This document shows positions 49,110 through 64,000 of a stretch of DNA of 64,000 bases, piece after piece. Under the pieces are notes generated by a model. The model did not search any database and had not been told where the DNA came from. It worked only from the letters and a program-made list of their open reading frames with translations. The stretch covers positions 1,736,001 to 1,800,000 of the forward strand of contig NZ_CP089301.1 in NCBI RefSeq assembly GCF_021227995.1, in the 5' to 3' direction. The stretch comes from Novosphingobium kaempferiae. Lineage in GTDB: Bacteria > Pseudomonadota > Alphaproteobacteria > Sphingomonadales > Sphingomonadaceae. The position numbers were made by a program, and so were the translations under genes. Position 1 is the stretch's first letter, and the number at the start of each line of letters is the position of its first letter.

Positions 49110-50564
49110 ATGATGAAGCAGACTTTGGCGGCGCTGCTCGCCGCAACCGCCCTCTCCGCCTGCGCGGTCGGCCCGGACCATGTGGCCCCGACCCCGCCCG
49201 CGTCGGCAGAGGCTCCCTTCGTCGGCGTGCAGAGCGCCGAAGTCACCACTGCCGCCCCCGACGACAACTGGTGGAAGCTCTACGACGACGACGTGCTGAA
49301 CGGCCTCGTCGCGCAGGCGCTGGCGGCCAATACCGACCTGCGCGTCTCGCTTGCGCGGATCGAACGGGCGCGCGCCAACTTGCGCGGCTCGCGCTCGCAG
49401 AACCTGCCCTCCACGGACATCAGCGCGACCGGCACATATGGCCGCGTGTCCGAAGCGCAGGCGCTGCCCGGCTTCGACCGTGAAGGCCGCCGCGTCGATG
49501 GCGGCATCTCCATCGGCTACGAACTCGACCTTTTCGGCCGCGTCAGCCGGGGCATCGAAGCCTCGCGCGCGGACCTTGCAGCGGCGCAGGAGGATGCCGA
49601 CGCGGTGCGCGTCACCGTCGTCGCCGACACCGTGCGCGCCTATGTCGATGCCACCAGCGCCAACGAGCAGATCGACGTCGCACAGCGCAACGTCGACCTG
49701 CTCGCCCGGTCGGAGCGCATCACCAATGCCCGGTTCGAGCGCGGCCTCAACCAGAAGCTCGACGTCATCCGCGTCACCCAGCTTCGCGAGGCGCAGGCCG
49801 CGACGATCCCGACGCTGCAGGCCCGCCGCGACGCCGCGCTGTTCCGCCTCGCGGTGCTGACCGGCAACACGCCGCAGGATCTGCCCGACGGCGTGATCGC
49901 GCGCACCACCACGCCCAACGTCGGCCAGCCCATCCCGGTGGGTGACGGTCGCACGCTGCTGGCGCGGCGCCCCGACGTGAAGGCGGCCGAGCGCCGCCTC
50001 GCCGCCGACACCGCGCGCATCGGCGTGGCGACGGCGGACCTCTATCCGAAGATCACGCTGGGCGGCTCGATCGGCACCACGGCGGTCGGCTCCACCGACA
50101 TATTCGGCGGCGGCCCGCTGCGCTGGCTGCTCGGCCCGCTGATCTCGTGGGCCTTCCCCAACCAGGAAGCGATCCGCGCCCGCATCGGCGGCGCCAAGGC
50201 CGACGCCAAGGCGGACCTCGCTGCCTTCGACGGCACCGTGCTGCGCGCGCTGGGCGAGACGGAGACGGCGCTGTCCGCCTACCGCAACGCCCTGCTGCGC
50301 AAGGTACGCCTCGCCGCCTCGCGCGATGCGGCGGACCGCGCGGCCAAGGTCAGCCTCGCCCGCCAGAGCCGGGGCCAGATCGACGCGCTCGACGTGCTCG
50401 ACGCGCAGCGCACGCTGGCAGCCGCAGATGCGGACTCGGCAGCGGCCACCCGCGACGTCGCCTTCGCGCAGGTGGACCTGTTCCGCGCGCTCGGCGGGCG
50501 CTGGGAGCAGGAGAAGCAGGCGAGCGCGGAGCCCGCGGTTTCCTACAAGACGGCCGCGCGCTAG
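49110..50564 (+). CDS. Outer-membrane efflux lipoprotein, NodT/OprM family
   Basis: 484 residues from ATG 49110 (MMKQTLAALLAATALSACAVGPDH), a lipoprotein signal with lipobox LSAC at Cys18. It contains NWWKLYDDDVLNGLVAQALAANTDLRVSLARIERARA and the repeated coiled-coil barrel halves of TolC-type channels (about 60-240 and 270-470), including GQIDALDVLDAQRTL. It completes the tripartite pump. It follows the pump gene across a 136-base repeat-bearing gap in the same direction. Confidence 0.92.
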   Translation: MMKQTLAALLAATALSACAVGPDHVAPTPPASAEAPFVGVQSAEVTTAAPDDNWWKLYDDDVLNGLVAQALAANTDLRVSLARIERARANLRGSRSQNLPSTDISATGTYGRVSEAQALPGFDREGRRVDGGISIGYELDLFGRVSRGIEASRADLAAAQEDADAVRVTVVADTVRAYVDATSANEQIDVAQRNVDLLARSERITNARFERGLNQKLDVIRVTQLREAQAATIPTLQARRDAALFRLAVLTGNTPQDLPDGVIARTTTPNVGQPIPVGDGRTLLARRPDVKAAERRLAADTARIGVATADLYPKITLGGSIGTTAVGSTDIFGGGPLRWLLGPLISWAFPNQEAIRARIGGAKADAKADLAAFDGTVLRALGETETALSAYRNALLRKVRLAASRDAADRAAKVSLARQSRGQIDALDVLDAQRTLAAADADSAAATRDVAFAQVDLFRALGGRWEQEKQASAEPAVSYKTAAR

Positions 50565-50615
50565 AAAGGGGGCCATGCGCCCCCTTCAATGCGCCCAAGT
50601 ATCGCCGTTCCACTT

Positions 50616-50690
50616 CGTCATTGCGAGCGAAGCGAAGCAATCCACGGTCGGTCCGTGACGCTGGATTGCTCCGCTTCGCTCGCAATGACG
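50616..50690. repeat. Palindromic intergenic repeat, family A
   Basis: CGTCATTGCGAGCGAAGCG at the left and CGCTTCGCTCGCAATGACG at the right, with GCAATCCA and TGGATTGC inside. It starts 51 bases after the channel gene stop, in the gap (50565-50821) between convergent operons. Confidence 0.85.
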
Positions 50691-50707
50691 AGGCAGGTCG
50701 AAGGCCC

Positions 50708-50745
50708 GGAAAATGCGTGCAACCGGAAGGTCACACGCATTTTCC
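50708..50745. terminator. Hairpin between convergent RND and ADC operons
   Basis: GGAAAATGCGTG (50708-50719) and CACGCATTTTCC (50734-50745), a perfect 12-base stem with a 14-base loop. The A4/T4 blocks lie at the base of the stem and AT-rich sequence follows, so it may end transcripts from either side. No true T-run. Confidence 0.45.
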
Positions 50746-50821
50746 ATATTTCACATTATAATCAAATAATTACATCGCATTCCTGCGACACATAAACACC
50801 GATCCGGCTCAAGCAAACCCC

Positions 50822-51643
50822 TCAGTCCGCGTTGTAGTCATGCACCACGCGGATACCTTCGAGGATCATCGTCATCGGGATCGAATAGCCCCCGATGGTC
50901 TCGACCGGCTGGATCGGCCAGAGTTCCTCGTTAGGCCCCTCGCCGAAGACGAGGCTGGCGCTTCCCGCAGTCGGCGTGCCGAAGCTGGTGTCGCGCATGA
51001 TCTGCTGGACGAGGTCGTGGACCGCCGGCTTGCCCCTGGGCGGAATGGTGATGTCGGGCATGTGCCGCATCCCGGTCAGCGGCAGGAGCGCGGTGTAGAA
51101 CGACAGGTCGTCCATCGCGATCTCGCGCTCCGGCGTATAGCTCATGTCCACCACCCGGTCGCCGAAGCGCGACACGGTGCGGCGGATCGGATGGCCCAGC
51201 GCTCCGTCGAGCGGAGAACCGATACGGCCGATCAGCGGGTGGCGCGAAGTCTCGTGGAAGTCCCCACCCTTGGACGTCGCGCCGATGAACCAGCTCAGGA
51301 CGATCAGCCAGTCCTTGTCGCACCACTGGAAGGCGGAGAACATCGTCGGCTTGCCGTCCAGCTTCGCGGGAATGCCGATGACGCAGACGTTGTAGCCGGT
51401 CTGCGCCGGGTCCATCGCCGCCGGGTCCATGTCGACCGGGTGGCAGGTCAGCTTCGGCGACCACAGGAAGCACTCGCCGCTGTCGTCGAGCGACTCCAGC
51501 GGCGCGGGAAGGTAGCGCGCCAGCGCCTCGGGATCGGCGCGGAAGTGGATGAGAAGCAGGTCGCCGGCGAACTTCCACGGCAGCGGATGCGCGATGGAGC
51601 CGATGCCGGTGGGGGTGAAGGGGCGCGTGAAACCCTGCGTCAT
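50822..51643 (-). CDS. Acetoacetate decarboxylase-family protein
   Basis: 273 residues from the ATG at 51643, which overlaps the preceding stop (ATGA). The ADC-like beta-cone fold is suggested by PADLLLIHF-type N-terminal strands (FAGDLLLIHFRADPEALARYLPAPLE), WSPKLTCHPVDMDP, and a C-terminal SLVFGEGPNEELWPIQPVETIGGYSIPMTMI. The Lys-Lys pair of clostridial ADC (YPKKLG) is not obvious; single lysines occur in IPAKLDGK and GATSKGG. The ADC superfamily also includes aldolase-dehydratases. It is the last gene of the minus-strand operon and probably handles a late, keto-acid step. Confidence is in the fold, not the reaction. Confidence 0.7.
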   Translation of the reverse strand: MTQGFTRPFTPTGIGSIAHPLPWKFAGDLLLIHFRADPEALARYLPAPLESLDDSGECFLWSPKLTCHPVDMDPAAMDPAQTGYNVCVIGIPAKLDGKPTMFSAFQWCDKDWLIVLSWFIGATSKGGDFHETSRHPLIGRIGSPLDGALGHPIRRTVSRFGDRVVDMSYTPEREIAMDDLSFYTALLPLTGMRHMPDITIPPRGKPAVHDLVQQIMRDTSFGTPTAGSASLVFGEGPNEELWPIQPVETIGGYSIPMTMILEGIRVVHDYNAD

Positions 51644-52071
51644 GCGGCGTCCTTTCCGGCGGCGTGGCGGGCCATCATCGCGGCGTGCTGCGCCTCGGCC
51701 TCGTCGAGCCGCTTGGCCGCCAGCGCCGCGCAGGGGAAGCCCGCCTCCTGCCCGGTGACGATCAGTACCTCCTCGATCTCCGCACGGGTCGCCCCGTTGC
51801 AGAAGGCACCGCGCATGAAGAACCGCGTCTCCTCCCGCCCCAGCGCCGCCAGCACGGCCAGCGCCACGAACATCCGGGTCTTCATGTCGAGTCCCTCGCG
51901 CTCCCAGACCATCGGGCCGATCTGGGTCATGACGAAGCGGTTCATGCCCACCGGCCCCTCGTGGAGCTGCTTGCACAGTTCGGCGCCGTAGATCTCGCCG
52001 AACATCCGCTTGAAGTTGGCGGCCCCGCGCGCAAGGTCGGGATCGTCGTAGGTGTAGCCGTCGTCACTCAC
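51640..52071 (-). CDS. Carboxymuconolactone decarboxylase (CMD)-family protein, copy 1
   Basis: 143 residues, all-helical AhpD/CMD fold. Segments MTQIGPMVWEREGLDMKTRMFVALAVLAALGREETRFFMRGAFCNGATRAEIEEVLIVTGQEAGFPCAA follow the CMD pattern. The CxxC of AhpD peroxidases is absent, so decarboxylase- or isomerase-like chemistry is more likely. It is separated from the flavin monooxygenase gene by 14 bases and overlaps the ADC-family gene. A second, different CMD gene lies at 53243. Confidence 0.82.
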   Translation of the reverse strand: MSDDGYTYDDPDLARGAANFKRMFGEIYGAELCKQLHEGPVGMNRFVMTQIGPMVWEREGLDMKTRMFVALAVLAALGREETRFFMRGAFCNGATRAEIEEVLIVTGQEAGFPCAALAAKRLDEAEAQHAAMMARHAAGKDAA

Positions 52072-52085
52072 GGAGATAGGCCCTT

Positions 52086-53243
52086 TCAGATGGGGACGCG
52101 CATCGCGTCGTAGTCGTTGAGGTCAAGCGTGTGGCCGAGCGCCTCGCCGGGCGATCCGCCCTCGTCGGGGTGGGAGTTGAAGTAGCGCCCATGCTCCCGG
52201 CTGGTGCGCAATGCATAGTTGGCGCGCGGCTTGCGGGCGGCCTGATAGGCGGCCAGCGCGGTGCGCAGGTCCGGCTTCTCGGTCACGGCGCGGGCGAGGA
52301 TCAGCGCATCCTCGATGACCATGCCTGCGCCCTGTCCGAGAAACGGCAGCATCGGATGCGCCGCGTCGCCGAGCAGGACGAAGGGGCCGTCTGACCAGAT
52401 TTCGCGGACCTCGCGGTCGAACAGGCCCCACTTGAACAGCGCCTCTGCGGGCGCGGCGCGGATGAGGTCGGTGACGATGGCGTTGTAGTCGCCGAAGCGG
52501 GCCAGCACTTCGTCATGCGTGGCAGGGATGCGCCAGCCTTCCTCTTCCCACGTATCGACAAGCGCGAAGGCGAGGAAGTTCACCGCCGTCCGGTTGCGGA
52601 TGAAGTAGTGGACGAAGTTGCTTTGCGGCCCGAGGTGGATGCCGGTCGGATCGGCGCGGAAAGCATCGCCCAGTCGCTCGGCCGGGACGACGGCGCGATA
52701 GGCGATGACATTGGTGAACAGCGGCTCCTCGTGCCCGAACACGAGTTCCCGGATCGAAGAACGGATGCCATCGCAGCCGACGACGAGATCGCCCTCCGCA
52801 ACCGCCCCGTTCGCGAAGACGACGCGTCCGCCGGTAGCGGTGCGCTCGATCCCGACGGCGCGGTGCGACAGGTGGATGGAGGCCGGATCGCCCTCACGAA
52901 CCGCATCGATCAGTGTGCCGTGCAGATCTTGCCGGTGCATTTGATAGAGTGGCGCCCCATAGTCCGCGCGCATCTTCGTCCCGCGTTCGAAGGCATGAAG
53001 CTCCTCGCCGGAGCGGTAGTGGAAGATCTTCTGGACCGGCGGCTCGACCGCGATGGCGTCGAGCTTGTCTTTGAGGCCAAGGTCGAACAGAACCCGGCAG
53101 GCATTGGGCCACACGGTAAGCCCCGCGCCCGCCTCGCGCAGTTCGTCCGCCTGCTCATAGATCGCGGCGGTATGCCCGAAGCGGCGCAGCGCGATGGCAA
53201 GGGTCAAGCCCGCGATTCCGCCGCCGACGATGACGACATGCAT
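52086..53243 (-). CDS. Class A FAD-dependent aromatic monooxygenase (salicylate hydroxylase-like)
   Basis: 385 residues. The FAD/NAD(P)H fold shows VVIVGGGIAGLTLAIALRR at the N-terminus, the DG motif GDLVVGCDGIRSSIR in the middle, and the GD motif FVLLGDAAHPMLPFLGQGAGMVIEDALIL. This is the group containing salicylate and 6-hydroxynicotinate hydroxylases. It would hydroxylate, often with decarboxylation, a phenolic acid. Its ATG overlaps the stop of CMD copy 2 (TGATG). Position in the operon suggests an early or middle step after the hydrolase and amidohydrolase. Confidence 0.87.
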   Translation of the reverse strand: MHVVIVGGGIAGLTLAIALRRFGHTAAIYEQADELREAGAGLTVWPNACRVLFDLGLKDKLDAIAVEPPVQKIFHYRSGEELHAFERGTKMRADYGAPLYQMHRQDLHGTLIDAVREGDPASIHLSHRAVGIERTATGGRVVFANGAVAEGDLVVGCDGIRSSIRELVFGHEEPLFTNVIAYRAVVPAERLGDAFRADPTGIHLGPQSNFVHYFIRNRTAVNFLAFALVDTWEEEGWRIPATHDEVLARFGDYNAIVTDLIRAAPAEALFKWGLFDREVREIWSDGPFVLLGDAAHPMLPFLGQGAGMVIEDALILARAVTEKPDLRTALAAYQAARKPRANYALRTSREHGRYFNSHPDEGGSPGEALGHTLDLNDYDAMRVPI

Positions 53244-53653
53244 CAGTAGCTGCCCTCTTCGGCGAGGAACGCCTCATGCTCCGCGATGGTCGCGGTCAGC
53301 CAGTCGAGCGCATTGGCGGCACGCGGCATGCCCGCCTCCAGCCCGACGAGCAGCAGCAGTTCCTCGATTTCCTGCGGCGTAATGCCGTGGATCAGTGCCG
53401 AGCGGCAGAAGATCTTGAACTGCACATCCTGCGCCGTCGTCGCGAAGATGACGATCATGGTGACGAGCTTGGTGCGCAGGTCCAGCCCGTCACGGAACCA
53501 GACCATCGGCCCGATCTTGCCGAACACCAGGTCCTGAAAGCTGTCGGGCCGCACCGCGTAGGCATCGGTGTAGCGCTTTGCCAGCTTGGGGCCGAAAAGC
53601 AGTTCGAACAAACGGTGCCCGTCCGCGTTCGGCTTCGAATCCGTGCTTGTCAT
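53243..53653 (-). CDS. Carboxymuconolactone decarboxylase (CMD)-family protein, copy 2
   Basis: 136 residues: FGKIGPMVWFRDGLDLRTKLVTMIVIFATTAQDVQFKIFCRSALIHGITPQEIEELLLLVGLEAGMPRAA. It shares the IGPMVW-R-GLD-(R/K)T and HGxTPxEIEE pattern with copy 1 but is clearly diverged, so the two may form a heteromer or act on successive intermediates. It lies 18 bases after the alpha/beta hydrolase stop and overlaps the monooxygenase start by one base. Confidence 0.85.
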   Translation of the reverse strand: MTSTDSKPNADGHRLFELLFGPKLAKRYTDAYAVRPDSFQDLVFGKIGPMVWFRDGLDLRTKLVTMIVIFATTAQDVQFKIFCRSALIHGITPQEIEELLLLVGLEAGMPRAANALDWLTATIAEHEAFLAEEGSY

Positions 53654-53671
53654 CCTTGAGGAACTCCCGTT

Positions 53672-54553
53672 TCAGCAAGCCGGAAGGTGCGCGCGCAGGA
53701 ATGCGGCGATCGGCTCGATGTACTCCGCCTCGCGCCCCACGCCGATCAACGGATGGCCGCCAGGGTATGAGAACTGCGCATGGCCGGCAGGCGCCGCCGC
53801 CAGCGCGTCATCGTGCGCAGGGCGCAGCGGCTCGTCCTCGGCGGTGAGCAGCAGCAGCCTGCTTTCGAGCGCCGGCAGTCGCGCGATCCAGTCATAGTGG
53901 GACACGCTCACGTCCGACCGCTTGTGGGGTGTGAGCGCTGCGCGAACCGCTTCCGGAACCATCGGCGACGGCGACGTCGCGATCGTCGGATCGTTCTGGA
54001 GCGAGCCGATGGTCAGTCGCCGGAACAGCGGCCAGGTATCGGCATCGAGCACGAAATGCGGGTTGAACAGGCGCAGCTTGCCGAGCAGCATGTCCACCCA
54101 CCAGTGCGCTTCGTTGCCCGCGAACGGGTACTGCGGATTATTGGCGATCACTTGCGTCGCCAGGGCCATGGCCTGTTCGTCCGTGACGGTCGTCGCGCCG
54201 TCCATCACGAGAACCGGACAGGCCGCAGGATCGCGCAAGGCGAACTCCAGCCCCGTGATGCCGCCCTGATGCCAGCCTATGACCGCGAAGACGCCGCCCA
54301 TTTCCTGCCCGACGTCGGCCATGACTTCGGCCTGCCCTTCGATGGTCAGGCATGCCGAGGCGCTGTCCGAGTTCCCGTAGCCCAACCCGTCGTAGGCTAT
54401 GACGCGAAAACCCTGCGCCGCAAGCAGCGGCATGACCGGCTCCCAGAACAGGCTCGTCCACGGATTTGCGTGGGCGAGCAGCACCGCCGGCCCCTCCCCG
54501 CATTCGCGCAAGTGGATCTGGCCGTGACGGCTGTCGATATAGGCGCGCCGCAT
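53672..54553 (-). CDS. Alpha/beta hydrolase with His in place of the nucleophile Ser
   Basis: 293 residues with the alpha/beta hydrolase fold: oxyanion-loop region AVLLAHANPWTSLFWEPV, strand 3 FRVIAYDGLGYGNSD, nucleophile elbow VIGWHQGGITGLEFA, acid loop LLLLTAEDEPLRP and catalytic His in SYPGGHPLIG. The elbow should read G-x-S-x-G-G; here it is G-W-H95-Q-G-G, read from codons GGC TGG CAT CAG GGC GGC. Ser, Cys or Asp is absent, so ordinary ester hydrolysis is unlikely. It may be a lyase or a C-C bond enzyme, or inactive. It lies six bases after the amidohydrolase stop. Confidence 0.82.
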   Translation of the reverse strand: MRRAYIDSRHGQIHLRECGEGPAVLLAHANPWTSLFWEPVMPLLAAQGFRVIAYDGLGYGNSDSASACLTIEGQAEVMADVGQEMGGVFAVIGWHQGGITGLEFALRDPAACPVLVMDGATTVTDEQAMALATQVIANNPQYPFAGNEAHWWVDMLLGKLRLFNPHFVLDADTWPLFRRLTIGSLQNDPTIATSPSPMVPEAVRAALTPHKRSDVSVSHYDWIARLPALESRLLLLTAEDEPLRPAHDDALAAAPAGHAQFSYPGGHPLIGVGREAEYIEPIAAFLRAHLPAC

Positions 54554-54559
54554 CGCCGG

Positions 54560-55735
54560 TCAGCGCATGTCGAAGACGTCGAGCGCGGTCTCGCCGACGA
54601 TCTTCTTCGCGTTGTCCTCGCTCGTCGCCGCGAACACGGCATGTGCCGCAGAGCGCGTGTAGCCCACCGTGCTCTCGTTATGCGGGTAGTCGGTGGACCA
54701 CATGACCCGGTCGGCGCCGATGAAGTCGAGCAGTGCAAGGCCCGCCGCGTCGGTCATGAAGGTCGCGTAGCAGTGGTTGAACCAGTACCAGCTCGGCGTG
54801 TGCCTGAGCTGCGGCGTCATCAGCGGATGGAAAGCCTCATAGGCAAGGTCCGCGTCCTGGATCGCGCCGGCCACCCAGTTGATGCCTGCCTCGACGAAGA
54901 CGACCTTGAGGGCGGGATGCCTGTCGAAGACGCCGCCGAACGTCAGCGCGCCCCAATTGAGCCGGAAACCGCCGGTCTGCGAAAGGAAGTGCGCGCCCAA
55001 CCCGCCGAAGCTGTCGATCTTAACCGCCTCGCCGATATGGAAGCAGAAGGGCAGGACGGATTTCTCGACGGCGCTCCAGAACGGGTCCATCTCGGGGCTG
55101 GCATAGAGGATGTCGGTGCCGTCGGGTCGCTGCCCCGGCATGATCGGTGCCATGATCGCCTTGAGGCCGAGCGCGCGGATCTCCTCGATTGAGGATTCGA
55201 AGGCATCCGGATCCCAGAAGTTCGCGATGCCGACGCCGTAGAGCCGGTCGGGCGCCTGCGCGCAGATGGATGCGATATACTGGTTGTAGCCCCGGAACAC
55301 CCAGGCGCGCGCTTCGAGGTCGGCCTCGCGGATCAGCGAGAGCACCTTCTGCGGGAACAGCAGTTCCTTCTCCACCCCTTCGGCGTCGAGATCGGCGAGC
55401 CGCGCCTCGACTTCGCTCATGCCGGGCAGACATTCGAAGGTGTCCTGCGCCTCCGTGATGATGTCAGGGAAGCGCATTCTGCCGCCGACTTCGATGTTCC
55501 AGCCTTTCGGCGTGCGCACGACTTTCGGCGCCTTGTCCCGCAGATGCTCGGGGAAGCGACTGGTCCAGACATCGCCGGTTTCAAGCCAGTGGCTGTCCGA
55601 GGAAATCAGCCGCGTACCGGCGGGAAAAGGCAGCGAATCGCGCTGCAGTTCGCGGTCGCAGGGAAAGCCGATCCCGACCATCTCCGGTATACTGACGCGC
55701 GTCGAAGGCGTGTGGTCAACACGTGCGGAGGCCAT
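54560..55735 (-). CDS. Amidohydrolase of the ACMSD/decarboxylase type (amidohydrolase-2)
   Basis: 391 residues from the ATG at 55735 (MASARVDHTP), chosen for the GGGGAC ribosome site nearby; in-frame ATGs at 55747 and 55795 are possible. The TIM barrel reads ISSDSHWLETGDVW (D-x-H in place of H-x-H, common in this subgroup), FCFHIGEA with a metal His, and the terminal VMWSTDYPHNEST with the catalytic Asp. The family includes ACMSD, gamma-resorcylate decarboxylase and 5-carboxyvanillate decarboxylase LigW. It leads the minus-strand operon divergent from the IclR gene. A non-oxidative decarboxylase or a hydrolase of an aromatic or ring-cleavage product is likely. Confidence 0.83.
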   Translation of the reverse strand: MASARVDHTPSTRVSIPEMVGIGFPCDRELQRDSLPFPAGTRLISSDSHWLETGDVWTSRFPEHLRDKAPKVVRTPKGWNIEVGGRMRFPDIITEAQDTFECLPGMSEVEARLADLDAEGVEKELLFPQKVLSLIREADLEARAWVFRGYNQYIASICAQAPDRLYGVGIANFWDPDAFESSIEEIRALGLKAIMAPIMPGQRPDGTDILYASPEMDPFWSAVEKSVLPFCFHIGEAVKIDSFGGLGAHFLSQTGGFRLNWGALTFGGVFDRHPALKVVFVEAGINWVAGAIQDADLAYEAFHPLMTPQLRHTPSWYWFNHCYATFMTDAAGLALLDFIGADRVMWSTDYPHNESTVGYTRSAAHAVFAATSEDNAKKIVGETALDVFDMR

Positions 55736-55860
55736 TACCGTCCCCATATCTGAATGGATGGATTTTGGCGGACATCTCTCTCGTCCGACGTGCATATCGC
55801 TATGGCCGGGCGGTGCTGCTCACCACGCTCGATCCGTGCAATCACCACCTGGTGGATTTT

Positions 55861-55870
55861 TTTGTATGCA
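55861..55870 (+). promoter_or_regulatory. Cluster motif TTTGTATGCA (amidohydrolase/IclR gap)
   Basis: First of four copies of a TTTG(T/C)AT(G/T)CA motif in intergenic regions of the 50822-64000 cluster. It lies just upstream of the IclR start at 55880 and within the divergent control region. Confidence 0.5.
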
Positions 55871-55879
55871 CGCATCGAC

Positions 55880-56734
55880 ATGGGGCCGATCAATGACACT
55901 CTCGCCCATATGGACAGCCTCAGTTCTCCTCTCAGGGCCCTGAGCCGCGGCATCGGAGTGCTGCGAGCCATCAGCCAGTCCGGCCCGATCAGTCTGAGCG
56001 AAATGGTCGAGGCGACCGGGCTGGCGCACACCACTGTCGTGCGCATCGTGCGCACGCTGGAATCCGATGGGCTGGTGAGGCGCATCGACGGCAGCAAGCG
56101 TTATGCCGTGACGGAGCTGACGCTTGGTCTGTCATGCGGGTTCACTCAGGACGACAGGCTGACGCAGCAAGCGGCGGAACCAATCCGGGAACTGACCCGG
56201 CAGGTCGGTTGGCCCATCGCCATACTGACCCGCGTCGGCGGTGCGATGATCGTGCGGGATTCCACCGTGCGGGAGACCTCGCTGACGTTCAACGTCTACG
56301 ATGCCGGGATAACCCTCCCGATGTTCGCATCTGCTGCCGGGCGGGTGTTCTTCGCGTTCTCGACGGCCGACGAGCGCGCGGAAATGCTCGCTCGTGCCCT
56401 TCAGGGCGGCCCTTCGACAAGTACGCACGTGCTTGAGGAATTTCGGCGGGAGGATGTCATCGAGCGCATCCGGCGCGATGGCCATGTCGCCATGTCCAGC
56501 GTCGGATCCGAGGAGCGGGTGCGGGGCAATGCGGCGATTGCGGTCCCCATACTCATCGATGGGAGCGTTCGCGGCGCCTTGTCGCTGGTGTTCTTCAGCC
56601 GCGCGATGCCGTTGGCGCGAGCGATCGCCCAACTCGTTCCCCCGCTTTCGGAAACCGCCCGCGGACTAAGCATACGCCTTGGGCGGGGCGATCAGGCGCG
56701 GCGACCGGTCGGAGAGCGGATTTTCTCAAATTAG
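55880..56734 (+). CDS. IclR-family regulator of the 50822-64000 cluster
   Basis: 284 residues from ATG 55880; ATG 55910 (MDSLSSPLRALSRGIGVLRAI) is equally good, while an earlier in-frame ATG at 55754 adds an unlikely extension across the control region. Helix-turn-helix: GPISLSEMVEATGLAHTTVVRIVRTLESDGLVRR. The effector domain ends with VRGNAAIAVPILIDGSVRGALSLVFF. It is divergent from the six-gene catabolic operon and upstream of the receptor and transporter genes, so it is the natural regulator of both arms. Confidence 0.88.
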   Translation: MGPINDTLAHMDSLSSPLRALSRGIGVLRAISQSGPISLSEMVEATGLAHTTVVRIVRTLESDGLVRRIDGSKRYAVTELTLGLSCGFTQDDRLTQQAAEPIRELTRQVGWPIAILTRVGGAMIVRDSTVRETSLTFNVYDAGITLPMFASAAGRVFFAFSTADERAEMLARALQGGPSTSTHVLEEFRREDVIERIRRDGHVAMSSVGSEERVRGNAAIAVPILIDGSVRGALSLVFFSRAMPLARAIAQLVPPLSETARGLSIRLGRGDQARRPVGERIFSN

Positions 56735-56752
56735 TATACCATATGACTATAC
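56734..56752. promoter_or_regulatory. Inverted repeat GTATA-N9-TATAC downstream of the IclR gene
   Basis: Five-base arms around a central CATATG, beginning on the stop codon of the IclR gene, in the AT-rich 285-base gap (56735-57019) before the TonB receptor. Possible control site for the receptor promoter. Weak on sequence alone. Confidence 0.35.
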
Positions 56753-56889
56753 AGCACAAGCTATGCGTAAATCTCCATCATGATGGCTTATCTTGACGTA
56801 ATGCACGTATTTTAAACGTTTTAATGGCGATTTCACGGTCGCGTTTGTGGCAAAATTGCCGCTGGACATAGCGGCCAAACGTGACAGTT

Positions 56890-56899
56890 TTTGTATTCA
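56890..56899 (+). promoter_or_regulatory. Cluster motif TTTGTATTCA (TonB receptor promoter)
   Basis: One base from TTTGTATGCA, within a quasi-palindrome TTTTTGTATTCATAAAAA, 120 bases upstream of the receptor gene. Confidence 0.45.
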
Positions 56900-57019
56900 T
56901 AAAAACAAGAGCAGGGTGAACAAGCTGCAAAGGCAGTTCAGGGATCAATCCCGCGACTGACCAGCCACGGCGGTGTGGGACCGCAGGCGGCAGGGGCGGA
57001 CAAGACGAGGGAAGAAGCG

Positions 57020-59281
57020 ATGATGACTTCACGCTGGATCATGGGCGTCTCCGCCGCTGCGCTGTTCATCGGCGCGCAGCCTGCGCTCGCACAGGACGCC
57101 GCGGACGAAAGCGCAGCGACGGAAAAGGCTTCGGGCGTCGGCAGCGACATCGTCGTTACCGCACAGCGCCGCGAGCAAAGCCTGCAGGACGTGCCGATCG
57201 CCGTCTCCGCCATCAGTGCGGATGCGTTGGTGGCGCAGGAGGCGACCTCGACGCAGGGCCTGCTGCGCATGTTCCCGAACGTGTCGGGCGCGCAGATCAC
57301 CGGTGCTGGCGCCAACAACTACTCGATCCGCGGGCTTTCCAATGCGGAGACTGCCGCGACGTTCGACTCTCCGGTCGGCACCTACATCGACGGCATCTAT
57401 CTCAGCCGCGTGAACTCCAACAATTTCGCGCTGTTCGACATCGAGCGGATCGAGGTGATGCGCGGCCCGCAGGGCACGCTGTTTGGCCGCAACACCACCG
57501 GCGGCGCGATCAACGTCGTGCTCAAGCAGCCCGGCAAGGAAATGGGCGCCTCTGTGGAAGGCTCCTACGGCAATTACGACTCCAAGTCGCTGCGCGGCTC
57601 CATCGACATGCCGATCGGCGAACACATCCGCACCCGCCTGTCGGGCTACTGGATGGATGAGGACGGATACGTCAAGAACATCACCACCGGCGGCACCGAG
57701 AACGATCACGACGGCTGGGGCGTGCGCGGCGCGGTCAGCATCGACCTGTCGTCGGCCGTGACCTGGGACATCTCGGTCGATCACATCCATGACGAGAACT
57801 CGCTGATCCCCGCCACCAAGGTGGACGGCAAGTGGATCAGCAGGACAGGCCTCCAGAAGCTGGGCAGCATCGTCACCGGCAAGAAGGGCGACATCGAGCC
57901 GAACCGCGTCATCAACGATACCACCGGCGTCACCAGCAAGCTGACCATCGACGCCAGCATCGGCACCATCCAGTTCATCACCGGCTACCGCCATCTGCGC
58001 AGCAAGTTCAACCTCGACTACTTCGACAACCCGTCGACCATCGGCGGATATGACTCGGTGCAGTATTCGAAGCACAACCAGTTCAGCCAGGAAGCCAACA
58101 TCTCGGGCGAGCTGTTCGGCGGCGTGGCGGACTATACGGCGGGGCTGTTCTACTTCCATGAGTACAACGACACCGACTTCACCACCGTATTCCGCCTCGG
58201 CAGCGGCGCGCCCTTCGTCGATGCGGACCGCACGGTGTTCAACACCACCGACAGCTTCGCGATGTACGGCCAGTTCGACTGGCACCTGACCGACAAGCTG
58301 ACCCTGACGACCGGTGGCCGCTGGACCACCGACACCAAGAAGATGCATTACGAGGACAACGGCAATCCGCGCGCCAGCGTCCACCTGACCGACCAGACGC
58401 TGCTCAACGCGGGCATCCCGCTGACGCAGACCGCGTCGGTCTTCACCCCGCGCGTCGCGCTGACCTATCAGGCGACCCCGGACGTGATGCTGTTCGCATC
58501 GGCCACCAAGGGCTTCAAGTCGGGTGGCTGGAACGTGCGCGCCACGACCACCAACCTGCTGGGCGACTTCGAGGCGGAAACGATCTGGTCGTTCGAAGGC
58601 GGCGTGCGTTCGGAGTTCTTCGACCGCAAGGTCACGTTCAACCTCACGGGGTTCTATGGTTATACCAAGAACCTTCAGATCGCGACCGCCAACGGCGCTT
58701 CCTCGGCCGGCGTGCCGGTGTTCCCGGTCGGCAACTTCTCGGATTTCCGCAGTTATGGTCTTGAAGCGGAAGCCAACTTCCGCCCGATCGACGGCCTCTC
58801 GATCTTCGCCAACGCGGGCTACAACAAGACCGAGTACGCCAACCCGACCCCGGCGGTTCTGGCGCAGCAGGCTGCCTGTGAGGCGGCGCTGGCGGCAGGC
58901 GGGACGAGCAGCAACTGCGGTGGCGGCATCATCCGGCTCGATGGCACCATCGCCGCTCCGCTGCGCGCGCCCAAGTTCACCGGCACCGTCGGCTTCTCGT
59001 GGGACGTGCCTGTCACCGACACATGGTCCGTCGTGCCGTCCAGCTCGTTCCGGTACGTAAGCAGCTTCAACGTCAACGCGGCCGAACTGCCGACCACTTA
59101 CGACGATGGCTACTCGCTTCTCGCGGGCTCGCTCGCGCTGGAGAACAAGGACGCCGGGATGCGCTTCTCGATCGGGTGCGAGAACTGCACGAACTCGATC
59201 TACCGCGTGGCCACCATCGCCGGTTACTCGTACTGGTCGCCGCCGCGCCGCTGGACCGCCCGCGCGCGCTTCGACTTCTGA
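57020..59281 (+). CDS. TonB-dependent receptor of the uncharacterised catabolic cluster
   Basis: 753 residues from ATG 57020 (ribosome site GAGGGAAGAAG). Signal peptide MMTSRWIMGVSAAALFIGAQPALAQ; TonB-box-like SDIVVTAQRREQSLQDVPIAVS; plug with YSIRGLSNAETAATFDSPVGTYIDGIYLSR and RGPQGTLFGRNTTGGAINV; 22-strand barrel ending in ARARFDF. This sub-family (sphingomonad receptors for non-iron aromatic or lignin-like ligands and others) is expanded in such genomes. Linkage to catabolic genes suggests uptake of the pathway substrate, not iron. Confidence 0.88.
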   Translation: MMTSRWIMGVSAAALFIGAQPALAQDAADESAATEKASGVGSDIVVTAQRREQSLQDVPIAVSAISADALVAQEATSTQGLLRMFPNVSGAQITGAGANNYSIRGLSNAETAATFDSPVGTYIDGIYLSRVNSNNFALFDIERIEVMRGPQGTLFGRNTTGGAINVVLKQPGKEMGASVEGSYGNYDSKSLRGSIDMPIGEHIRTRLSGYWMDEDGYVKNITTGGTENDHDGWGVRGAVSIDLSSAVTWDISVDHIHDENSLIPATKVDGKWISRTGLQKLGSIVTGKKGDIEPNRVINDTTGVTSKLTIDASIGTIQFITGYRHLRSKFNLDYFDNPSTIGGYDSVQYSKHNQFSQEANISGELFGGVADYTAGLFYFHEYNDTDFTTVFRLGSGAPFVDADRTVFNTTDSFAMYGQFDWHLTDKLTLTTGGRWTTDTKKMHYEDNGNPRASVHLTDQTLLNAGIPLTQTASVFTPRVALTYQATPDVMLFASATKGFKSGGWNVRATTTNLLGDFEAETIWSFEGGVRSEFFDRKVTFNLTGFYGYTKNLQIATANGASSAGVPVFPVGNFSDFRSYGLEAEANFRPIDGLSIFANAGYNKTEYANPTPAVLAQQAACEAALAAGGTSSNCGGGIIRLDGTIAAPLRAPKFTGTVGFSWDVPVTDTWSVVPSSSFRYVSSFNVNAAELPTTYDDGYSLLAGSLALENKDAGMRFSIGCENCTNSIYRVATIAGYSYWSPPRRWTARARFDF

Positions 59282-59307
59282 TGCACGATTTCCGGTCTGT
59301 CCTGACA

Positions 59308-59332
59308 GTCGACGGGGCATGCCCCCGTCGAC
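59308..59332. terminator. Hairpin after the TonB receptor gene
   Basis: GTCGACGGGG / CCCCGTCGAC, a perfect ten-base stem with a five-base loop, 27 bases after the receptor stop. No T-run follows, so it may be a weak terminator or an RNA-stabilising hairpin. Confidence 0.45.
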
Positions 59333-59352
59333 GCCATGCACTATAACGCGGG

Positions 59353-59362
59353 TTTGCATGCA
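59353..59362 (+). promoter_or_regulatory. Cluster motif TTTGCATGCA (MFS transporter promoter)
   Basis: One base from TTTGTATGCA, 60 bases upstream of the MFS gene at 59422. Third member of the motif set. Confidence 0.4.
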
Positions 59363-59421
59363 GGCTGGCGCACGTATTCTCCGTTCTTCCCCGCTCCTGA
59401 CCGAGGGTTGAAGCAATACCC

Positions 59422-60660
59422 ATGACCATGTCCCTGGCCGCCGGCGCAGATTCCCCTTTCTCCTCTGACCGCAACGAGCCGTGGCGGCGCTGGCTCACCG
59501 TCAGCGGATTGCTGCTTGCGATGGTCATCATCCACGGCATCATCCAGGCGGGGCTTCCGGCGCTCGACAAGGCGCTGTTGACGGACCTCGGCATTTCCCG
59601 CGGGGATCTCAAGGCGCGTGAGGCGATCTTCTTCCTGGCATCGGGAACGTCGAGCTTCCTCGTCGGACTGGTGACGCGCCGAATAGCGCCGAACTTCATC
59701 ATTTTCGGCGGCCTCGCGCTGTTGGCGGCTACGCTCTGGGCCTATGCCCATGCGGCTTCGATCGGACAGATCTACGCGATCTATCCGTTTCTCGGCCTGT
59801 GCTTCGCCAGCGTTCACGTTGTCATCGTGGTCCTGCTGATCCACCGCAATTTCGAGAGCCGCCGCGCGCTGGCGATCTCGATCGCGCTGTCGGGCACCAG
59901 CCTCGGCGCGGCGATCTTCCCGAACCTCGTCATTCATCTGCTGAAGGAAGAAAGCTGGCGTCAGAGTCTCACGCAGCTTGCGGTACTGCCGCTGCTGGCA
60001 ATGCCGTTCCTGCTCCTGCTGCTTCCCCGCAACGGCTACGTGGCCGGGCGGACGAATGCTGCCCAGCCCGTCGCCGAAGGCAAGATCCGTCGCACCGGAC
60101 TTCGCCTCGCCTGCCTCATGGTGGCTACATTCGGCACGTTCTACGCCGCCACGTCCTTCCTGATGAACCTGTTCCTCTATCTTCAGGACGTGGGGATGAA
60201 GTCGGAAATGGCGGCGATGGGCATGAGCAGCGTTTTCGTGATCGGGCTCTGTGGCAAGGCCGTCGTCGGCCTCTGCGCGGAACGCTGGGGCTCGCACGTG
60301 CTCTGGCTGGTGCAACAGGCGATCCTGCTGGGCGGTGCGATCCTGCTGACGACCGGTGTAATAGCGGTCCTTCTGCCCGGTCTGGTCCTGCTCGGCATCG
60401 GTTGGGCGGGCTGCTACGTCATGACGCAGGTCGTGCTGTCCGAGTACTTCGCCGGGCCGAAGCTGGGCCAGCTTATCGGCGCATTCTTCCTGTTCGAAGG
60501 CGCATCGTCGGCGCTTGGCACATGGGCCGCGGCGCGGCTCTTCGACGCTTTCGGTTCCTATCAGGTGGGCTTTTCCGTCAACGTGCTGACAGTGGCTCTG
60601 GCCATCGGCGCGACGCTGGTGTTTCGCCGTTCGGTGCGACGCGACATTGCGGATGCCTGA
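59422..60660 (+). CDS. MFS transporter of the uncharacterised catabolic cluster
   Basis: 412 residues, about twelve helices. It begins with a short polar leader, then WLTVSGLLLAMVIIHGIIQAGLPALDKALL; the 2-3 loop reads SFLVGLVTRRIAPNFIIFGG and lacks a strict GxxxDRxGRR motif. It resembles the monocarboxylate/OFA-like MFS group in layout. Probably imports the substrate or an intermediate after uptake by the TonB receptor. It is convergent with the cupin gene at 60689 (28-base gap). Confidence 0.82.
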   Translation: MTMSLAAGADSPFSSDRNEPWRRWLTVSGLLLAMVIIHGIIQAGLPALDKALLTDLGISRGDLKAREAIFFLASGTSSFLVGLVTRRIAPNFIIFGGLALLAATLWAYAHAASIGQIYAIYPFLGLCFASVHVVIVVLLIHRNFESRRALAISIALSGTSLGAAIFPNLVIHLLKEESWRQSLTQLAVLPLLAMPFLLLLLPRNGYVAGRTNAAQPVAEGKIRRTGLRLACLMVATFGTFYAATSFLMNLFLYLQDVGMKSEMAAMGMSSVFVIGLCGKAVVGLCAERWGSHVLWLVQQAILLGGAILLTTGVIAVLLPGLVLLGIGWAGCYVMTQVVLSEYFAGPKLGQLIGAFFLFEGASSALGTWAAARLFDAFGSYQVGFSVNVLTVALAIGATLVFRRSVRRDIADA

Positions 60661-60688
60661 GGCATGGTCAGCGCAGTGGCGATACGAA

Positions 60689-61450
60689 TCAGCTTTCGAC
60701 GAGTTCTCCGCCTTCGTAGCGGAGATAGGCCCAGGGCCCGTCGTGCCATTCGAGCAGCACGCAGCCGCCCCTAGTGTGTTCGTGAAAGCCATGAACCGAA
60801 AGCCGCGGGTTCCACAAGTACGATCCGGCGCGCATCGGCGTGTCGTCATCGGGCGCGATATCGCCTTCGAGGCAGAATATCTCTTCCTCGACCGGATGGT
60901 AGCTCGGTCCGCCGGTTCCTTCGAAACCTGCAGGAATGCGGAGCAGCCGGGTGTCCGCACCAGTGCCCGTGTCCTCCCAGAGCACCCGGCGTTCGAAACC
61001 TTCGAGTACTTTTCCGGCAATTACCGGTACTATCGGCTCGACCGCGAAGACGTCCGGCACGACGAGCGTTTCCGTATTTCCCTGCGGCGCCTCGGCCGTG
61101 CCATGATCGAGGATGACGACGACTTGCGCACCGGTTTCGCTCCCGATCGTCGGCAATTCGCCGCCGCGAGGCACTGCCACGAACCCACCGAAGCCGAGGT
61201 GCACATCGCCCACGGTGATCGTTCCGGAGCGCACGAAAACCTGGACGACCTCCGCGCAGGCAATCCGCCCTGTCCCGACAAATCCGGCAGGCAGCGACAC
61301 CAGCCCGCTTCGCAACGATCCGTCGTCGAGCTTGCGCAGGGGATGCACATGCGTGCCTGCACCGAAGAGTGTGAACGGCTCATCGGCAATGTCGCTTTCA
61401 TGGACGCACAGGGACACGTCGTAAGCGACAGGGCGAGGGTGTTCGGACAT
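60689..61450 (-). CDS. Bicupin protein (DUF4437/ChrR-like)
   Basis: 253 residues with two cupin folds. The C-terminal fold keeps candidate metal ligands (SYHPVEEEIFCLEGDI and SVHGFHEHTRGG); the N-terminal fold has GTHVHPLRKLDDGS and TITVGDVHLGFGGFVAVP. Relatives include 2,4-prime-dihydroxyacetophenone dioxygenase-like and ChrR-type cupins. It is divergent from the cupin at 61555, with a TTTGTATGCA motif between. It may be a non-haem oxygenase or an isomerase of this pathway. Confidence 0.72.
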   Translation of the reverse strand: MSEHPRPVAYDVSLCVHESDIADEPFTLFGAGTHVHPLRKLDDGSLRSGLVSLPAGFVGTGRIACAEVVQVFVRSGTITVGDVHLGFGGFVAVPRGGELPTIGSETGAQVVVILDHGTAEAPQGNTETLVVPDVFAVEPIVPVIAGKVLEGFERRVLWEDTGTGADTRLLRIPAGFEGTGGPSYHPVEEEIFCLEGDIAPDDDTPMRAGSYLWNPRLSVHGFHEHTRGGCVLLEWHDGPWAYLRYEGGELVES

Positions 61451-61488
61451 TTTTCCTCCACGTACCGGACGTTGCGGATTCAGGATAT

Positions 61489-61498
61489 TGCATACAAA
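61489..61498 (-). promoter_or_regulatory. Cluster motif TTTGTATGCA (between divergent cupin genes)
   Basis: An exact copy on the minus strand of the motif at 55861, in the 104-base gap between the cupin genes at 60689 and 61555, so it can control both. Confidence 0.5.
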
Positions 61499-61554
61499 TT
61501 TCGGACCGGCCAGCCTCGGCGGCGTTGCGGATTTGGCATGAAGGAGGAGCGATC

Positions 61555-62307
61555 ATGCGACCGAGGATTGTAGCGCTCGATGTCGAGGCGATGGACTGGA
61601 AACCGCTGGGCCCCGCCGGTCTCTACTCGAAGCTGCTGAGCCGCGACGAGGAGACGGGCGCGCGGACGGCATTGCAGCGGCTCAATCCGGAGGAAGGGTA
61701 TCAGCCTCCGACGATCGCGCATTTCCATACCACTTACGAGGAAATCCTCGGCGTGCGAGGCTGGTTCAGCTTCGACCAGCGGACTTGGGTCCGCCCCGGC
61801 TCCTACGTGTTCCACCCACCGCGCACCGTGCATGGCTTCAGCAGCGCGGTGCCGCAGGACAGCTGGTTCCTCTCTCGCGTGGGCCGCGACCTCGACGTGA
61901 ACCTCGTCGATGTTCCCGCTCATGACGACCTCTACGTCATCGAGGGTGACGCCCCGCCGCGCATCCCCTGCGCCATGGGCGAGCCGATGGCCGAACTCGG
62001 CTTCGTCCAGCGGACCATCGCGGGTGCGAGTGCGCCGGTGCAGTGGTGCGAACTCTCGGTCGATCCCGAGACCGGTGAAGGCTCCGCGCTCGTTCGCCTG
62101 CCATCGGGCTGGCGCTATGAAGCCGCCGGACTGCCCGGCTACCTTGAGATATTCACGCTTGAAGGGGCTTTGTCGCAGGAGGGCGCCGGGGAAGTGCCCC
62201 GAGGCATGACCTACTATTTCTACCCGCCCGAGGAGCCCGTCGGCCCGCTTGTCGCGAACGGTGAAATCCTTGCCTACATCAATTTCGGACGCCCGCTGGA
62301 GCCCTAA
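61555..62307 (+). CDS. Bicupin protein (DUF4437-like)
   Basis: 250 residues from the ATG at 61555, preceded by a strong AAGGAGGAG ribosome site. First cupin: IAHFHTTYEEILGVRGWFSFD and VFHPPRTVHGFSS give H-x-H, Glu and a distal His. The second cupin (about 140-245) has WRYEAAGLPGYLEIFTLEGALS and is missing clear His ligands. It starts a plus-strand operon with the SDR fusion (four-base gap) and the cupin at 63681. Likely a metal-dependent oxygenase or isomerase acting on a pathway intermediate. Confidence 0.75.
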   Translation: MRPRIVALDVEAMDWKPLGPAGLYSKLLSRDEETGARTALQRLNPEEGYQPPTIAHFHTTYEEILGVRGWFSFDQRTWVRPGSYVFHPPRTVHGFSSAVPQDSWFLSRVGRDLDVNLVDVPAHDDLYVIEGDAPPRIPCAMGEPMAELGFVQRTIAGASAPVQWCELSVDPETGEGSALVRLPSGWRYEAAGLPGYLEIFTLEGALSQEGAGEVPRGMTYYFYPPEEPVGPLVANGEILAYINFGRPLEP

Positions 62308-62311
62308 CCCG

Positions 62312-63655
62312 ATGCCTTCAATCTGCCTGGTGATCGACGGCGGCTCCCCCTTCGCCGACACAACTTCGACTGTCCTCTCCCCCCTGTTCGACCGGGTTCT
62401 GCGCACCGGCGTCGGAATGCCGGACCTACCGGAACTCGCGCTGGACCTCGATGACGATGCGTCATGGAACAGGATGAGCGACGCGCTGTTGCGGCGCTAT
62501 GGCGCTCTTGATGCACTCGTGTTCTGCGCGCCGCCTGTCGATGTGCCCGGCGGTCAGGTGATTGCCCGCCAGTGGTTCGCCCTGCGCGAAATGCTGCGCC
62601 TTCTCCCGGAGGGTGAGCGCGGCGTGTTCCTGAGCCAGCATCTCGCCCCGGATGATGCCAGCCCGGCACGCGCAGCCGCCATCGAAGGACAGCGCATCGG
62701 CATGGGCGCGGCAGTGATCGACGGCATCGCGATGGGCCGCCGTCCACGCGCCAACCGGCTCGTGCTCGACGAGAAGGCTGCCCCGTCCGCCGTCGCAGAA
62801 ACCGTGCGCTTTCTGTGCGATGCTCGCTCCGCGTTCCTGTGCGGCGCGGAAGTAGCGCTCGATGCGACCCTCAGCGAGGGTGATTCCAGGCTGGATGGTC
62901 GGACCATCCTGATAACCGGCGCAACGTCTGGCCTCGGGCGCGCAGCGGCGGTTCTGGCGGGCAAACTCGGCGCTTTCGTGGCCATCGGGGGACGCAAGGC
63001 TCCGCTAGCAGAGGAAACGCTGGCCATGGTCCGTGAAGCCGGCGGCGACGGCATGGTGGTCCCGCTGGATGTCACCGACGCCTCGGCATGGGCACGGGGG
63101 ATCGAGAGCGTCGTCGCTGCGCGTGGGGCCCTGCACGGGCTCGTCAACAACGCCGGGGAATCGGTCAATCGACGGCTCGACCAGCTTACCGGCGACGATC
63201 TCGGCTTCCTGCTGGCAGTCAACTACACCGGCACCGTTCTCGGCATGGATGCCGCGTTGGGGGCGTTACGCGCATCGGGTGGCGGCTCGATCGTCAACGT
63301 CAGCTCTGTCGCGGGTATTCGCGGTGGTCCGGGAGCCGCCGCCTATTCCACTACCAAGGCGGCGGTCATCGGCGAGAGCCTGTCCCGGGCCCGCGCGCTT
63401 GCCGGAGATACCACCCGCATTCGCGTCAATGCCTTGCAGCCGGGCCTGATCTGGAGCGACAGCGTGGCGGATTCGCTCGGCGAGGCGGGAGCGCAGGCGT
63501 TCCGGGCCCGGATCGAGCCGCAGACCCCGCTGGGCCGCGTGACGACGCCGGAGGAGGTTGCCGAACCGCTCTGCTGGCTGCTCAGCGAGGCCGCCGCTCC
63601 GGTGACCGGCCAAGCGATCCACGTATCAGGCGGGCTCGAACTCAACTTCCCCTGA
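62312..63655 (+). CDS. Tandem short-chain dehydrogenase fusion, first domain degenerate
   Basis: 447 residues, nearly twice a classical SDR. The second half (about 195-447) is a complete SDR: TGATSGLG (202-209), NNAG (279-282), Ser332, Y345-x3-K349 and a C-terminal TGQAIHVSGG. The first half (1-190) mirrors an SDR in length and order (LDDDASWNRMSDALLRRYGALDALVFCAP; VRFLCDARSAFLCGAEVALDA) but lacks the glycine motif and the Y-x3-K pair. It probably arose by duplication and keeps a structural role. It starts four bases after the cupin gene. It should oxidise or reduce a hydroxyl/keto intermediate. Confidence 0.83.
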   Translation: MPSICLVIDGGSPFADTTSTVLSPLFDRVLRTGVGMPDLPELALDLDDDASWNRMSDALLRRYGALDALVFCAPPVDVPGGQVIARQWFALREMLRLLPEGERGVFLSQHLAPDDASPARAAAIEGQRIGMGAAVIDGIAMGRRPRANRLVLDEKAAPSAVAETVRFLCDARSAFLCGAEVALDATLSEGDSRLDGRTILITGATSGLGRAAAVLAGKLGAFVAIGGRKAPLAEETLAMVREAGGDGMVVPLDVTDASAWARGIESVVAARGALHGLVNNAGESVNRRLDQLTGDDLGFLLAVNYTGTVLGMDAALGALRASGGGSIVNVSSVAGIRGGPGAAAYSTTKAAVIGESLSRARALAGDTTRIRVNALQPGLIWSDSVADSLGEAGAQAFRARIEPQTPLGRVTTPEEVAEPLCWLLSEAAAPVTGQAIHVSGGLELNFP

Positions 63656-63680
63656 TCAGCCAAGGAATAAGGAGGTTTCC

Positions 63681-64000
63681 ATGACCGACTTCCGAACAGT
63701 TCGCGCCGACGACGTGCCGTGGCAGCCGATCGGCACGCACGGCCTCATGTGCAAGACGCTCGCCTTCGACGAGAGCACCGGCGGGATGCTCAACTACCTG
63801 AACATCCCGAAGGACTGGCGCGGCGGCGGTGTCGCGCATTTCCACGAGGCGTTCGAGGAGGTCTACATCCTCGAAGGCTCGGTGACGCTGGGTGCGGGGC
63901 GCTGGTTCGTCGAGGGCGACTATTTCTATCGTCCGGGCCGCGTCGTGCATGGTCATGCAGAGGAAGCCCGCGAGGGCTGTCGCGCGCTGGTTCGATCGAA
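63681..64000 (+). CDS. Cupin protein, cut by the window edge
   Basis: The frame opens at ATG 63681 after a perfect AAGGAGG ribosome site and runs to the edge (106 residues seen). One cupin fold is visible: VAHFHEAFEEVYILEGSVTLG and FYRPGRVVHGHAEEAREG, with H-x-H, Glu and a distal His for a metal. The N-terminal TVRADDVPWQPIGTHGLMCKTLAFDESTG resembles that of the cupin at 61555, so these are paralogues. Third cupin gene of this cluster; same operon as the SDR fusion (25-base gap). Confidence 0.8.
   Translation, partial: MTDFRTVRADDVPWQPIGTHGLMCKTLAFDESTGGMLNYLNIPKDWRGGGVAHFHEAFEEVYILEGSVTLGAGRWFVEGDYFYRPGRVVHGHAEEAREGCRALVRS

Follow-up and report, generated by a model that had tools for sequence, protein, structure and literature searches.

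We analyzed a 64,000-nucleotide stretch of Novosphingobium kaempferiae DNA (the window; bases 1736001-1800000 of the 5.70 Mb contig NZ_CP089301.1), focusing on an operon and its neighbors at 50822-64000. With slightly better than even confidence, we favor an arrangement of two neighboring modules: module A, a rare six-gene operon that would break down an organic acid or phenol-like compound oxidatively, and module B, a gene set with an IclR regulator that recurs in congeners. The genes, their spacing, the conserved ligand and elbow residues and the separability of the modules can be read from the sequence itself. As judged from its residues, the first operon gene encodes a candidate amidohydrolase-related dinuclear oxygenase (ARO) and not an ACMSD decarboxylase. 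The most unusual part of the locus is the hydrolase family represented by the second gene, which has His at the nucleophile elbow. The operon genes are as follows, in transcription order.

54560-55735, minus strand: candidate dinuclear oxygenase (ARO), PF04909 amidohydrolase fold; first operon gene
53672-54553, minus strand: alpha/beta-hydrolase-fold protein with His95 at the nucleophile elbow (GWHQG), Asp240 and His267
53243-53653, minus strand: carboxymuconolactone decarboxylase-family protein CMD2 (PF02627, E = 8.4e-9)
52086-53243, minus strand: group A FAD monooxygenase (FMO; PF01494, E = 4.5e-25)
51640-52071, minus strand: carboxymuconolactone decarboxylase-family protein CMD1 (PF02627, E = 7.7e-11)
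50822-51643, minus strand: acetoacetate decarboxylase-family protein (ADC; PF06314, E = 8.1e-25 on a longer open reading frame); last operon gene

The intergenic distances from ARO to ADC are 6, 18, -1, 14 and -4 bases, and this spacing points to a single operon. A first-pass annotation of this DNA had proposed the same six-gene minus-strand operon; its content, order and tight spacing (50822-55735; gaps of -4 to 18 bases) were confirmed. A terminator-like site at 50792-50771, beyond the ADC gene, fits the operon end, but five such sites were found against 4.1 expected in shuffled sequence. All Pfam matches of the named genes in the region are far above chance (E of 4e-8 or better).

The amidohydrolase-fold protein probably has a dinuclear-type metal site

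The protein encoded at 54560-55735 had been annotated as an ACMSD-type amidohydrolase. We dropped the reading as an ACMSD-type decarboxylase, since its metal ligands match those of dinuclear oxygenases. All six dinuclear ligands of AibH2, as given in PMC7782822, are present (D47, H49, H233, E282, D349 and H352) and are invariant in 120 aligned sequences, its own included. E354, an extra acid two residues after the last ligand His, is invariant in the same 120 sequences; an acidic residue at this position is reported only in binuclear members (PMC7782822). The first metal motif is D-x-H, not H-x-H, in the protein and in all 120 aligned sequences. In ACMSD-type decarboxylases, the first metal motif is H-x-H. 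PtmU3 and DitZ are the nearest proteins in both sequence and predicted structure, and in a profile search PtmU3 scored 177 bits and DitZ 136, whereas two benzoate decarboxylases scored 63.4 and 57.1 and ACMSD scored 32. These residues argue strongly for a dinuclear-type metal site and, with moderate strength, for an oxygenase.

Nine PF04909 genes were examined in the same genome (L128-L136). Seven of these, including the operon gene, carry the six dinuclear-type ligands, four or five of the seven also carry the extra acid, and the other two are of the H-x-H type.

The alpha/beta-hydrolase has a conserved His elbow

The 53672-54553 protein has a canonical alpha/beta-hydrolase fold with a catalytic acid (D240) and His (H267). 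It had been described as lacking the nucleophilic Ser, which proved correct: the elbow residue is His95. In the predicted structure (pLDDT 89.9), strand 90-94 is followed by helix 96-107, indicating that His95 is located at the elbow. The elbow (G93, W94, H95, Q96 and G97), D240 and H267 are retained in 13 of 13 family members, its own sequence included, and none of the 13 has Ser, Cys or Asp at this position.

In a literature search on hydrolases without Ser, the accessible part of the classification paper PMC11878206 lists Ser, Asp, Cys and Ser-less dyads; a His elbow appears neither there nor in the accessible part of PMC7034887. The phrase "replaced by histidine" in PMC9105624 was considered as a precedent and rejected, as a different residue is meant. 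It is conceivable, although on balance rather unlikely, that this protein founds an alpha/beta-hydrolase-fold family with a His-Asp-His site, the elbow His being nucleophile or base, coupled through the operon to a dinuclear oxygenase; in such a catabolic route, C-H hydroxylation by an "amidohydrolase" would precede bond cleavage in a His-elbow enzyme.

The remaining operon enzymes

The best PDB match of FMO is 8rqh (1.1e-64), the tropone 2-monooxygenase TrlE, followed by entries for a decarboxylating vanillate hydroxylase, 6-hydroxynicotinate 3-monooxygenase and 4-hydroxybenzoate decarboxylase. According to the accessible part of PMC11110157, TrlE couples ipso-hydroxylation to decarboxylation, with Arg185, His213 and Tyr217 in its site. 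These residues align with FMO Arg183, Asn209 and Tyr213, a putative correspondence in which the TrlE numbers were matched by a constant offset of 26. Assignment of FMO as a 3-hydroxybenzoate 6-monooxygenase was rejected (238 bits versus the NF006021 cut-off of 459).

CMD1 and CMD2 are 34% identical to each other, and neither qualifies as the 4-carboxymuconolactone decarboxylase PcaC (45.4 and 42.7 bits versus the TIGR02425 cut-off of 155.7). ADC meets the PF06314 cut-off and matches PDB entries 6eej and 4zbo best (1e-24); assignment as MppR was rejected (89.7 bits versus the TIGR04460 cut-off of 380). Lys125 is the sole lysine of ADC invariant in 63 of 63 sequences, its own included, but it aligns with the second lysine of an adjacent pair in 4zbo; it is a likely candidate for a Schiff-base role.

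The operon is rare

We searched overlapping samples of 195 genomes of the genus, 397 of the family and 385 of the class. In the genus (E of 1e-20), the hydrolase was matched only in its own genome and by one partial match of 127 residues; no complete copy was found outside its own genome among the 397 family or the 385 class genomes (E of 1e-25). At E of 1e-40, ADC was found in its own genome only among the 195 of the genus. An ADC 87% identical is encoded in Novosphingobium sp. BL-52-GroH (P0184) on a 1.79 Mb contig. Because no hydrolase or ARO match was listed from a contig of that size, ADC may serve another cluster too.

There were 402 ARO relatives in genome contigs, the best being 54% identical. 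Among the best 80 of these 402 loci, no full-length relative of the hydrolase, a CMD protein or ADC was found near the ARO gene (E of 1e-5) within the available flanks, many loci ending early. The same 80 loci yielded one partial hydrolase match (56 residues, L057) and two FMO matches approximately 9 kb away (L065 and L068). Plasmid records contained no match to the hydrolase, bicupin 2 or CMD2; 7 matched ARO, 161 matched FMO and 4 matched ADC, with none common to the ARO and ADC lists. Phage records had no ARO match.

We also compared the sizes of the longest contigs between the homologue lists. Five sizes (22985, 7615, 6824, 56248 and 11859 bases) occurred exactly in both the ARO and hydrolase-family lists, two of them also in the ADC list. 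The 49 hydrolase matches outside the family served as a control: one short size (1423) recurred in the ARO list, whereas the ADC list had no size in common with them. The five size-matched contigs thus appear to be the same public contigs, each carrying a hydrolase and an oxygenase.

The IclR arm is a separate module

The genes facing the operon are as follows.

55880-56734, plus strand: IclR-family regulator, divergent from the operon (PF01614, PF09339); the longest open reading frame begins at 55754 and the start was chosen by eye
57020-59281, plus strand: TonB-dependent receptor (PF00593, PF07715)
59422-60660, plus strand: MFS transporter (PF07690)
60689-61450, minus strand: bicupin 1, Cupin_7 type (PF12973, E = 3.8e-8, one stretch)
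61555-62307, plus strand: bicupin 2, Cupin_7 type (PF12973, E = 2.5e-17, on a longer open reading frame from 61525)
62312-63655, plus strand: tandem SDR-like protein (PF13561, E = 6.9e-50, in the C-terminal half); the longest open reading frame begins at 62249
63681-64409, plus strand, running past the window end at 64000: bicupin 3, also called cupin 3 (PF12973, E = 1.8e-19 on the full gene)

All the gene types expected in this arm (IclR, TonB receptor, MFS, bicupins, SDR and cupin) were present, but the first bicupin is on the minus strand. The gene described as a further cupin also has the size of a bicupin (242 aa, with two Cupin_7 stretches) and ends outside the window. The term "SDR fusion" holds in part: the tandem-SDR model PRK08261 matched over 376 residues, but at 131.5 bits, under its cut-off of 410. 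By eye, bicupins 1 and 2 (60689-61450 and 61525-62307) each seem to combine an intact metal-binding cupin half with a degenerate one.

A search for the gene order in relatives had been proposed; it recovered the IclR side without the operon in seven congeners. Bicupin 2 relatives (E of 1e-30 or better) occurred at nine places in 7 of the 194 other genus genomes. At seven of these, one per genome (L117-L123, 20 kb each), bicupin 2 is accompanied by bicupin 1, tandem SDR, cupin 3, ADH and IclR genes, and MFS was detected with BLAST in six. The module B genes there are 36-62% identical to those of the window, the IclR regulators 36-39%. At the other two places (L124 and L125), only an IclR relative lies directly beside the bicupin 2 relative. 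None of the six operon genes was the best match of any open reading frame in L117-L123 at E of 1e-8.

Genes in the gaps of module B were annotated at two of the seven loci. In L117, IclR faces an operon in which cupin 3 and ADH are joined by a different FAD monooxygenase and an arylmalonate-decarboxylase-family protein; a CMD-family gene different from those of the window and a PEP-mutase/isocitrate-lyase-family gene lie nearby. L118 also has arylmalonate-decarboxylase-family and PEP-mutase/isocitrate-lyase-family genes. Because the IclR, bicupin, SDR, cupin and ADH set stands without the operon in seven congeners, the arms are separable: the IclR arm is a separate module, to which the six-gene operon has been added as a neighbor.

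The palindrome TTGATC-CA-GATCAA, a possible operator, occurs upstream of IclR at four of the seven congener loci (L117, L121, L122 and L123) and is absent from that region of the window. Another palindrome, CCACCTGGTGG, occurs once in the window, at 55845-55855 between ARO and IclR, and is absent from the IclR regions of the relatives. A shared IclR operator was therefore rejected, the palindrome of four of the seven relatives not being in the window and that of the window not in theirs.

The 19 kb beyond the window (window coordinates 64410-83000) encode an alcohol dehydrogenase (ADH), SDRs, a fourth bicupin, a second ADC, LysR, GntR, a CaiB-type CoA-transferase, HMG-CoA-lyase-like, isochorismatase-family and NmrA proteins and a Rieske protein whose C-terminal domain is LigXa-like. 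They also encode a second FAD monooxygenase, which shares 49.6% identity with FMO. These genes place the studied stretch at the edge of a larger region, probably a catabolic one. No RNA element was matched within 50000-64000, and a tRNA-linked insertion was rejected, as the window contains no tRNA.

Proposed pathway and alternative explanations

We infer the activities of module A, their order, the substrate and the catabolic purpose, each pathway step from protein family. The compound would be taken up by the TonB receptor and MFS transporter. ARO, from the PtmU3/DitZ side of PF04909, would use O2 and a dinuclear center (Fe/Fe or Mn/Fe) to hydroxylate or dealkylate a C-H position. FMO would add a second hydroxyl by ring or ipso-hydroxylation; a carboxylate might be lost in this step, as with several of the enzymes of solved structure closest to FMO. 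The product would then be decarboxylated and split by CMD1, CMD2, the His-elbow hydrolase and the lysine-bearing ADC. In the hydrolase, His95-Asp240-His267 would probably provide general-base catalysis of lactone or C-C bond cleavage and not form an acyl-enzyme. Module B, the recurring congener set of IclR, MFS, bicupins, tandem SDR, cupin and ADH, has module A beside it here. A bulky hydrophobic or phenolic acid is a possible substrate, suggested solely by kinship with PtmU3 and TrlE. A literature search on this enzyme combination returned no match to the cassette, in keeping with the first-pass view of a compact, oxidative, undescribed and probably catabolic operon with transport and regulator genes nearby.

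Several observations count against this proposal. AibH2 (58.8 bits) and SfbO (46.9 bits) scored on par with the benzoate decarboxylases in the profile search; therefore, kinship alone extends no further than the PtmU3/DitZ side, and the remainder of the case depends on the ligands. No Rieske ferredoxin gene was found among the operon or plus-arm genes. The 80 relatives' loci contained one Rieske-motif and one ferredoxin-motif protein, in a scan of open reading frames of at least 90 aa that smaller ferredoxins would escape. Against reading the five shared sizes as the same contigs, no size match was seen for 6 of the 11 ARO relatives that are nearest or for 7 of the 12 other hydrolase-family members, three and two of these, respectively, being on contigs above 9 kb; because of these unmatched relatives, the six-gene set is not always kept together. 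In addition, a 2670-base contig common to the hydrolase and ADC lists is too small for the arrangement in the window.

We also weighed other explanations of the locus. A possible, although less probable, reading unites the two arms in one pathway under IclR control and for a single substrate, with module A producing a ring or dione for cleavage by the bicupins. The operon and the divergent IclR gene have a common upstream region, and the uptake, oxygenase and bicupin genes are contiguous. However, the two annotated congener loci place module B beside other enzymes (arylmalonate-decarboxylase-family and PEP-mutase/isocitrate-lyase-family proteins in both and a different FAD monooxygenase in L117), and no operator is common to the window and congener IclR regions. 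The first-pass proposal of a complete dedicated pathway over both arms is thus weakened, since IclR goes with the arm that lacks the operon in the seven congeners; transport and regulator genes do lie nearby, and the arms may share control. A non-redox, mononuclear enzyme of the ACMSD or gamma-resorcylate type, whether decarboxylase or hydratase, appears improbable for the amidohydrolase, given the D-x-H motif, the match of Glu282 and Glu354 to the dinuclear set and the profile scores (PtmU3 and DitZ, 177 and 136 bits; ACMSD, 32; benzoate decarboxylases, 57-63).

A catalytically dead His-elbow protein, acting as a binding or scaffold subunit, would agree with the absence of a Ser, Cys or Asp nucleophile in all 13 family members. 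We regard this as unlikely: Asp240, His267 and elbow residues 93-97 do not vary either, a pattern suggestive of selection on an active site, and the structure model is confident (pLDDT 89.9). Likewise, PtmU3 and TrlE, the nearest solved relatives of two operon products, are biosynthetic enzymes, and the operon might detoxify, modify or build a bioactive compound instead of feeding on it; we give this little credence because none of the six genes is of synthase type, the presence of a TonB receptor, two CMD proteins and ADC is in line with degradation, and the downstream 19 kb add further oxygenase, CoA-transferase and lyase genes. We retain the two-module arrangement, with a cassette that is undescribed and probably catabolic.

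If the arrangement is correct, AROs would gain a testable catabolic context; the accessible part of PMC10811679 calls the superfamily containing them largely uncharacterized. It would also define a small, clean family with an invariant His at the alpha/beta-hydrolase nucleophile elbow. In bacteria like this one, PF04909 amidohydrolase genes can belong to the dinuclear-oxygenase type, which calls for caution in annotation. The His elbow and the oxygenase reassignment make the locus worth bench work.

Comparison with known systems

ARO shares its fold and the D-x-H / H / E / D-x-x-H-x-acid pattern with PtmU3 (6omp, a diterpenoid-pathway hydroxylase; 26% identity over 343 residues) and with DitZ of Rhodococcus rhodochrous (8uyr; 23% over 352 residues). 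The diterpenoid pathway of PtmU3 is that of platensimycin and platencin. The six ligands of AibH2 and the extra acid link ARO to AibH2 and SfbO, as described in PMC7782822 and the accessible part of PMC10811679. Unlike those systems, the operon has neither a Rieske ferredoxin gene nor a second, AibH1-like amidohydrolase gene; PMC10811679 defines AROs and, in its accessible part, locates its four new candidates through adjacent Rieske genes. ACMSD and gamma-resorcylate decarboxylases have the PF04909 fold in common with ARO but differ in the first metal motif and other ligands.

The hydrolase has the alpha/beta fold of C-C, haloacetate and other hydrolases such as DxnB2, BphD, fluoroacetate dehalogenase and AidH, whereas their elbow Ser or Asp is His here. 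FMO belongs with the group A FAD monooxygenases TrlE, NicC and 3-hydroxybenzoate 6-hydroxylase (E of 1e-64 to 6e-43), sharing the site Arg and Tyr of TrlE but having Asn209 for its His213. CMD1 and CMD2 share the CMD domain with PcaC but score far under its cut-off. ADC shares PF06314 and one invariant Lys with 4zbo, 6eej and MppR, although 4zbo has two adjacent Lys and ADC one. Finally, the congener IclR-bicupin-SDR-cupin-ADH module consists of the same module B genes, with other enzymes alongside instead of the six-gene operon.

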